A stretch of 63,675 nucleotides of DNA from Halanaerobium congolense. Lineage in GTDB: Bacteria > Bacillota > Halanaerobiia > Halanaerobiales > Halanaerobiaceae. The stretch is taken from contig NZ_SOEF01000016.1 of NCBI RefSeq assembly GCF_004366375.1, forward strand, positions 1 through 63,675. The letters run 5' to 3'. The translations under genes and the position numbers were made by a program. The notes below the pieces were generated by a model. That model saw only the letters and a list, made by a program, of their open reading frames with translations, was not told the origin of the DNA and did not search any database. Below are positions 11,813 to 29,880 of the stretch, one piece after another (the stretch's first letter is position 1; every line of letters begins with the position of its first letter).

Positions 11813-11938
11813 GAACAAAATGTCCTTCGGACAATCTGTAATATAGTAAGGTTAAATTTTGTTGATAGCGAAAATTATGAAACTATAAATATTATCCACA
11901 ACAAACCATCAGGTATAATTTCCTGGCTAATAAAAAAA
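11813..11938 (-). repeat. 126-bp dispersed element, copy A, upstream of putP
   Basis: Read on the minus strand, this stretch matches 29755-29880 at all but 2 of 126 positions. It begins with the U tract of the preceding terminator and ends 26 bp before the putP start. It holds a TTATCCACA word (11892-11900), an AATTTT/AAAATT stem, and a TGTCC-TTC-GGACA hairpin next to the gene. There are no target duplications and no open frame. It could be a shared promoter or leader element or a small mobile repeat. Confidence 0.9.
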
Positions 11939-11957
11939 TCAGCCTCAAAGCGGCTAA
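11932..11957 (-). terminator. terminator after pcm
   Basis: On the minus strand TTAGCC and GGCTGA form a 6-bp stem with one G-U pair, followed by ATTTTTTT. It is 12 bp past the pcm stop, and its T tract overlaps the start of the 126-bp element. Confidence 0.7.
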
Positions 11958-11968
11958 TTAAATAATTA

Positions 11969-29108: not shown

Positions 29109-29534
29109 ATGGAACATAACAGTCTTGAAACTGCTAAAGCAGCTATTAAAATGTCTATTTCTAGCAGAAGTGAAGAAAAGGTATTAAAGAAAGAATTTGC
29201 AGCTAATGAAATAAATACTGCTGCTGTTGATTTTGGTGGTGAATTTAATAAATCAGTTCCTGAAATTATAGAAAGAGCAGTAATTGCAGCAAAACGCGAA
29301 AATATAATCGACAATTCTCATGTGGCCCAAGGAGCAGTTGCTGGAGCAGCACATGATGCCTTAGCTCAAATAATGCCCAGAACTATGGGGTTAAACGTTG
29401 GTGGAAAAATTGGAGTTGCTAGAAGTGGTGAACACATAGTTGTCGCTGTCTTTTTTGGTGTTGGTATGTTCAATTTAAATGAGGTAACTGTTGGCTTAAG
29501 CCATCGATCTTTATTGGATAATCAAAAAAGCTAA
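29109..29534 (+). CDS. hutP: HutP family RNA-binding antiterminator
   Basis: A 141-residue HutP-family protein. In Bacillus subtilis HutP is a hexamer that binds leader RNA in the presence of L-histidine and Mg2+ and prevents termination ahead of the hut genes. The clostridial-type core is clear: AAVDFGGEFNKSVPEIIERAV, then GAVAGAAHDALAQIMPRTMGLNVGGKIGVAR, then VAVFFGVGMFNLNEVTVGLSHRSL. The terminal His aligns with the B. subtilis metal ligand His138, while the two upstream His ligands are not clearly kept. No hutH/U/I genes are here. The next transcription unit begins with an attenuator. Confidence 0.85.
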   Translation: MEHNSLETAKAAIKMSISSRSEEKVLKKEFAANEINTAAVDFGGEFNKSVPEIIERAVIAAKRENIIDNSHVAQGAVAGAAHDALAQIMPRTMGLNVGGKIGVARSGEHIVVAVFFGVGMFNLNEVTVGLSHRSLLDNQKS

Positions 29535-29583
29535 CTTAATTTATAATCTTCAACTTCACTATTTTTACCTTATCCAAATAAAG

Positions 29584-29613
29584 TTGACAAAGGGATAATT
29601 ATAATAGTATAAT
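29584..29613 (+). promoter_or_regulatory. promoter of the TrpX-type transporter operon
   Basis: TTGACA (29584-29589) and TATAAT (29608-29613) are separated by 18 bp. It lies 50 bp after the hutP stop. Transcription starting near 29620 gives a leader of about 300 nt before the first gene. Confidence 0.85.
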
Positions 29614-29631
29614 AAAGAAAATCGAATAACT

Positions 29632-29731
29632 GGTAGCATGGTAATACGGTAGGAGAAATTTGTAGGAAAGCTTAAGCTTTTGTTTAAACAAGGGATTTTT
29701 ATATCTAATTTTAAACAAAAAAGCTTTAAGC
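29632..29731 (+). promoter_or_regulatory. structured leader RNA with GGTA repeats and a long hairpin
   Basis: Three GGTA words at 29632, 29640 and 29648 are spaced exactly 8 nt apart, and a further TGTAGG follows at 29661. A long stem-loop with arms 29670-29688 and 29710-29731 comes next, then an intrinsic terminator. The T-box signature GGTGGNACCGCG is absent. With a HutP gene immediately upstream, regulated antitermination is the natural reading, but this is inferred. Confidence 0.6.
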
Positions 29732-29738
29732 ATTTTAA

Positions 29739-29761
29739 CACTCCAGCTGGAGTGTTTTTTT
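29739..29761 (+). terminator. intrinsic terminator inside the transporter leader
   Basis: CACTCCAGCTGGAGTG (29739-29754) is a perfect palindrome followed by seven T. It lies about 120 nt downstream of the promoter at 29584 and about 155 bp before the first transporter gene, the position expected of an attenuator. Confidence 0.92.
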
Positions 29762-29880
29762 ATTAGCTAGGAAATTATACCTGATGGTTTGTTGTGGATA
29801 ATATTTATAGTTTCATAATTTCCGCTATCAACAAAATTTAACCTTACTATATTACAGATTGTCCGAAGGACATTTTGTTC
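29755..29880 (+). repeat. 126-bp dispersed element, copy B, upstream of the TrpX-type operon
   Basis: This copy differs from the inverted copy at 11813-11938 at only two positions. It begins in the terminator T tract and ends 36 bp before the transporter ATG, so both copies sit between a terminator and a transporter gene in the same relative direction. It contains TGTGGATAA (29793-29801) and the TGTCC/GGACA hairpin. Confidence 0.9.

Follow-up and report, generated by a model that had tools for sequence, protein, structure and literature searches.

The 63,675-nucleotide stretch of Halanaerobium congolense DNA analysed here (the window) carries almost the same non-coding sequence in front of two unrelated transporter loci, which raises the question of whether these loci share a regulatory leader or whether the sequence came to them by another route. 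The two segments, 11813-11938 on the minus strand and 29755-29880 on the plus strand, run in opposite directions and agree at all but two of 126 positions (124 of 126), the mismatches being at position 14 (C/T) and position 68 (T/C). This match is far above chance level, and the pair is the longest inverted repeat within the window, the runner-up being 57 nt at 74%. The gene downstream of the first segment encodes a putP-like sodium:solute symporter (SSF), and the one downstream of the second is the ABC substrate-binding gene of a TrpX-type operon. An earlier note, made from the sequence alone, had described this pair, and its description stands: both copies have a terminator hairpin and a T tract in front, end 25-40 nt before the start codon, and contain a TGTCC/GGACA hairpin and the DnaA-box-like TTATCCACA, present as its reverse complement TGTGGATAA.

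The reading offered there, a common leader, promoter or RNA regulator co-regulating amino-acid uptake, draws on this near identity, on the position before the ribosome site at both loci and on a conserved RNA-like structure (see below). A search of the organism's own genome (2.83 Mb, 93 contigs) argues otherwise, since it listed not two copies but about 30, most of them 96-100% identical, next to unrelated genes and in both orientations. All copies examined are intergenic. For 26 of them both neighbours could be read: 15 have genes co-directional with the element on either side, seven have genes opposite to it on either side, two are flanked by convergent and two by divergent genes; at least one flanking gene is on the opposite strand in 11 of the 30 copies. 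The genes downstream of same-direction copies include those for FdhD, PgpA (pgpA-type), a family 3 solute-binding protein, a haemolysin-III-like protein, DNA polymerase III alpha, argininosuccinate synthase (argG), Lon, cyclopropane synthase, a PPIC isomerase, an alanine-racemase-like protein, a xanthine/purine/uracil permease, a carbamoyl-phosphate-synthase-type protein and a DUF362 protein, and there is no common functional theme among the genes next to the copies. One antisense copy (L009; G000:C2:84544-84662) has entered the A-rich beginning (AAAAAAGGAG, followed by ATG) of an opposite-strand gene, whose translation it may influence. Read with their flanks, the partial copies C7, C19, C29, C4, C3 and C6 of this genome are truncated copies that enclose no gene.

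We then compared both loci with 12 genomes of the genus, searched with 1.2 kb around each window copy. Orthologous loci lacking the element and preserving an intact empty site were found in congeners at both putP and trpX. At trpX, GTGTTTTTTTATTATCCCCACTACC in G008 aligns with GTGTTTTTTTA and TTATTCCCACTACC in the window, separated by TTAGC...GTTC; at putP, the empty GATTTTCTTAAAAAGAAG of G008 aligns with GATTTTTTTA and AAAAGAAA, separated by TTAGCC...GTTC, the junction reading GATTTTCTTA/AAAAGAAG when empty and GATTTTTTTA/element/AAAAGAAA when occupied. At both loci the insertion is thus exact, 118 bp long (5'-TTAGC...GTTC-3') and placed behind a T6A target, and neither target-site duplication nor base loss was found at the two empty sites compared with the window. 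The match between the window copies does extend over 126 bp, but its first eight bases, TTTTTTTA, are the insertion site; as they are already present in genomes without the element, the element proper measures 118 bp. The T tract at both loci is older than the element. The coordinates are collected in the table below.

Table. Positions of the element, its target and its predicted hairpins in the window, with the evidence for each
Feature	Position	Strand	Evidence
Element copy 1 (118 bp), upstream of the TrpX-type ABC operon	29763..29880	+	Empty orthologous sites (G008, G007, G005, G004, G001, others); copy comparison
Element copy 2 (118 bp), upstream of the sodium:solute symporter (putP-like) gene	11813..11930	-	Empty site in G008
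Insertion target TTTTTTTA of copy 1, outside the element	29755..29762	+	Seen in empty sites; consensus of 70 copies
Insertion target TTTTTTTA of copy 2, outside the element	11931..11938	-	Empty sites; consensus of 70 copies
Terminator hairpin before copy 1 (AACACTCC-AGCT-GGAGTGTT)	29737..29756	+	Kept in congeners without the element
Terminator hairpin before copy 2 (AATTAGCC...GGCTGATT)	11936..11959	-	Sequence; empty-site comparison
Hairpin 1, copy 1, arms TTAGC-ta-GGAAATTAT and ATAATTTCC-GCTA(T)	29763..29828	+	Covariation, 7/14 pairs changed on both sides
Hairpin 2, copy 1, outer arms AACAAAAT and ATTTTGTT	29830..29879	+	Covariation, 3/8 outer pairs changed on both sides
Inner hairpin of hairpin 2, GTCC-GAA-GGAC	29861-29871	+	4/4 inner pairs changed on both sides
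Hairpin 1, copy 2	11865..11930	-	Covariation analysis
Hairpin 2, copy 2	11814..11863	-	Covariation analysis
TGTGGATAA (reverse complement of DnaA box TTATCCACA), apical part of hairpin 1, copy 1	29793..29801	+	Copy comparison
TGTGGATAA, copy 2	11892..11900	-	Sequence; copy comparison

The element is absent from the orthologous putP or trpX locus of every congener examined. The note had held shared regulation to be unlikely if relatives carried the element at only one of the two loci; in these congeners neither locus has it. Together with the many copies beside unrelated genes, several of them antisense, convergent or divergent to their neighbours, these empty loci already contradict a shared regulator, which we consider highly improbable. 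The recent duplication proposed in the same note holds in the form of recent transposition. We see no inversion between the two copies, 18 kb apart: putP and trpX keep the same order and direction in the congeners that have both loci on one contig (G008, G009, G001, G011, G006, G010). The note's picture of a mobile repeat, many copies with target duplications, thus applies as to copy number and not as to duplications. The same absence of duplication bears on a classic MITE mobilised by a DDE transposase: the element is small, A+T-rich, intergenic and present in many copies, as a MITE would be, but its ends TTAGCTAGG and ACATTTTGTTC are not inverted copies of each other, so that there are no terminal inverted repeats, and with no target-site duplication at the two empty sites this origin is already contradicted and very unlikely. 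We have hardly any doubt that the element is a mobile repeat. No regulatory role is demonstrated at putP or trpX, and the near-identical copies are mobile DNA, not a common switch.

The flanks of 70 distinct copies from several genera define the target. On the left, every position from -7 to -2 is T in 83-91% of copies and position -1 is A in 91%, while T falls to 51% at -8, giving the consensus TTTTTTA a sharp edge at -7. The right end reads GTTC in 53 of the 70 copies; beyond it the sequence is rich in A and T, and G is absent from +1 and +2. The orientation is fixed, the left end of the element lying against the T tract. A terminator-like hairpin stands directly upstream of 41-47% of the 70 copies, a share that is understated since the hairpin cut-offs miss obvious terminators (L151, L033), versus 3.5-6% of the control T6 tracts in the window, a contrast that is overstated since the control takes in T tracts inside genes. 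Seven copies lie directly behind Rfam-scored T-box leaders, that is attenuators, six in Halanaerobiaceae and one in Thermincola; one of these, at valS (L062), amounts to a degenerate left end, and T-box matches at other loci stop before the element begins. As T tracts without a clear terminator are occupied as well (L004, L007, L009, L014, L218, L220), T6A appears to be the basic requirement and a hairpin to be strongly preferred. Regarding the trpX locus itself, a HutP gene (PF09021) lies directly upstream of the TrpX-type ABC operon (window 29109-29760), and the interval between them contains spaced TAG triplets (TGGTAGCATGGTAATACGGTAGGAG) and a terminator, with a similar arrangement in the congener G011 (L122). 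This looks like a putative HutP-type attenuator controlling the TrpX-type transporter, with the mobile element behind it in the read-through leader.

The covariance analysis that the note had called for revealed two hairpins, kept by compensatory changes, that span the whole element end to end with one base between them. In an alignment of 48 diverse copies, 94.6% of the cells are paired and 14 of the 26 pairs show changes on both sides; the covariation score is 0.222 versus 0.104 in shuffles, none of 500 shuffles scoring as high, and pairing drops to 35-54% when the partners are slid. Because the alignment had been fitted to the model, these figures are tilted towards the structure; the changes can, however, also be read by eye. 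At the foot of hairpin 1, AGC/GCT is replaced across genomes by GTC/GAC, GGC/GCC or ATC/GAT, and the arms of hairpin 2 occur as AACAAAAT/ATTTTGTT or AACAAATT/AATTTGTT, as well as AAAAG/CTTTT. Departures from pairing, G-T in 15 columns and A-C in 15, give no pointer to the folding strand or to DNA versus RNA.

Within the otherwise variable loop of hairpin 1, TGTGGATAA is found with at most one mismatch in 43 of the 48 copies. Such conservation, together with the copies located within the read-through leaders of T-box genes, could mean that the repeat also serves its host, for example as a DnaA-binding site or as an RNA structure in leaders behind attenuators. However, the sites occupied differ among species, the motif is missing from part of the G022 copies, and its conservation would be equally expected if it were needed for mobility, which leaves a host function improbable.

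A degenerate pattern retrieved relatives, 94-119 bp long, in Halanaerobium species, Halanaerobiales MAGs, Thermincola ferriacetica MAGs and one Thermoanaerobacteraceae MAG; pattern matches in Acinetobacter, Flavobacterium, Roseivirga and Lachnospiraceae, in which the right half is missing, were judged to be chance. A covariance model built from 18 copies (R1) detected the family, at E below 1e-4, in 7 of 199 genomes sampled across the phylum, with 30 copies in G000 (the own genome), 14 in G013, 8 in G115, 7 each in G186 (Thermincola) and G022, 6 in G007, and few or single copies elsewhere. The distribution is thus patchy. The element has no coding capacity. No match to it was found in plasmids, phages or IMG/VR, no Rfam family matches within the window, so that no known cis-regulatory RNA corresponds to the element, and no description of the family was found in the literature searched, many subscription papers being outside its coverage. 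Minimal mobile DNA of this family, which extends over Halanaerobiales, Thermincola and other Bacillota, appears not to have been described before.

Several copies depart from the common form. Copies from two genera (L018, L021, L023 and L026-L028 in the own genome, L166 and L237 in G013) share a second type of left end, TTTTTTCTTATCTATCAACATTATATAATACCAGG, and two of them (L027, L028) end at nearly the same internal point, after TTAACCT. In G039, a different long hairpin repeat (GCCTTATTTCG.CGGAAATT...) lies beside element halves (L041, L050), apparently through its insertion into element copies. One copy (L037; G002:C46) contains an insert of ~57 bp in its right half, and in Thermincola (L147; G186) the right-end hairpin (AAGTTTCGATAGAAACTTTTGTT) is found in a tandem repeat just past the element.

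Among known small repeats, REP/BIME sequences associated with RAYT consist of a 20-40 bp palindrome with a GTAG/CGTC tag, the RAYT gene being flanked by copies; the present element is 118 bp long and has no copy at the Y1/RAYT-like loci of its own genome, so this class was rejected. The guide sequence of IS200/IS605 elements is located at the 5' foot, outside the hairpin, whereas here the stems begin at the first bases and reach the very ends, apparently leaving no room for a guide, and none is seen at the foot by inspection. The element resembles the IS200/IS605-type elements and the PATEs, which have no terminal inverted repeats, cause no duplication, insert 3' of a short oligonucleotide and carry palindromes at their ends (PMC7290912; PMC3119063). 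It shares the lack of terminal inverted repeats and of duplication, the short target on the left and the palindromes near both termini; like the PATEs of Haloquadratum, it is also too short for a transposase and present in many near-identical copies (PMC3119063). It differs from them in that no parental IS605 was found, the hairpins extend to the very ends, the T6A target commonly lies behind terminators and the family is spread over several orders of Bacillota (PMC3119063). As the model has no match at the ends of Y1 loci, and thus no related tnpA-bearing IS200/IS605 was found there, we call the element PATE-like rather than a proven derivative: the descriptive definition of PATEs applies to the family, which has a fold and a target of its own.

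Other comparisons are more partial. An IS605/PATE-like sequence of Halanaerobium hydrogeniformans belongs to the same host group and single-strand class and causes no duplication, but it is 271 nt long with a recognisable IS605 end and a tnpB remnant, whereas our element has no tnpA or tnpB remnant (PMC7290912). The small mobile repeats (SMR) of Haloquadratum are similar in length (~110 bp), in the absence of duplication, in a strong target preference and in that their mobiliser is unknown, but they are bounded by terminal inverted repeats and insert into other mobile elements (PMC3119063). YPAL/RU-2 of Yersinia is likewise a small intergenic repeat lacking a terminal TA, located next to dyad-symmetry sequences and known from empty and filled sites; it differs by its 168 bp, its target duplications of 3-26 bp and by not being A+T-rich (PMC2229807).

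Evidence on the route of insertion comes from G007, a complete genome with dnaA at the start of its contig (~0.3 kb) and a flip of the GC skew within 1.135-1.2 Mb. All six full copies (117,858 +; 1,142,002 +; 1,336,092 -; 1,489,727 -; 1,736,810 -; 2,186,474 -) point with the replication fork, as does a partial copy at 1,826,505 -, so that the T tract lies on the lagging-strand template. This orientation is as expected for insertion into single-stranded DNA, although genes and terminators have the same bias and confound it. An autonomous element with the same ends was not found among the partial copies and Y1 transposase loci checked: the model returned nothing around Y1 transposases except one copy beside an IS605 with its own, different ends. 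This IS605, in G007, was rejected as a partner, its four copies having their own boundary ~80 bp further on. In G186, with seven copies of the element, Y1_Tnp gave no match, in a draft assembly that can have lost IS copies. A survey of host genomes for Y1 transposase, reverse transcriptase, IS110-type and IS91-type enzymes showed no family common to all hosts that carry the element; the mere presence of an enzyme family in a host was not counted as evidence.

An alternative is that group II intron machinery copies the element via RNA and inserts it behind terminators. What group IIC introns recognise is a stem-loop in the DNA just before their insertion site, and they make use of the lagging strand (PMC10190682); the absence of duplication and the fixed orientation fit as well. 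At one copy (L020; G000:C57), a group II intron (Rfam RF00029) has its 3' end immediately against TTAGC; since the same intron ends in ...CTCTAT elsewhere (L067; G000:C52), intron and element use the same junction. This coincidence is a single case and may only reflect that both prefer terminators. In contrast to group IIC introns (PMC10190682), the element lacks a ribozyme core, domain V and a reverse transcriptase; at 118 bp, non-coding and with no Rfam match in the window, it was rejected as a group II intron itself. Moreover, the model finds nothing in the loci around reverse transcriptases, and G186 and G096 carry the element with no RVT_1 match. We consider this route unlikely. Less probable still is a bacterial analogue of SINEs, a tiny, gene-less structured element that would exploit either the path by which group IIC introns seek terminators or some other enzyme that seeks hairpins, and which would explain why intron and element use the same junction behind terminators.

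Overall, we favour a non-autonomous, PATE-like mobile DNA repeat that would insert as single-stranded DNA with the help of an HUH/Y1-type enzyme, an explanation to which, taken as a whole, we assign a probability of roughly 0.65; for the single-strand, HUH-like route on the lagging-strand template considered separately, the odds appear about even. The element would move as single-stranded DNA folded into its two hairpins, and a trans-acting enzyme, at best guess of the HUH/Y1 type, would join it to T6A, which may be exposed on the lagging-strand template, terminator hairpins helping to present the site. Landing behind terminators and attenuators would leave most insertions harmless. The family joins a conserved two-hairpin fold to a clear rule for insertion, namely T6A, in many cases just downstream of a terminator or T-box attenuator. 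It illustrates that terminators can act as landing sites at which a repeat multiplies while doing little damage. It also serves as a warning that near-identical leaders of unrelated genes need not imply common regulation.
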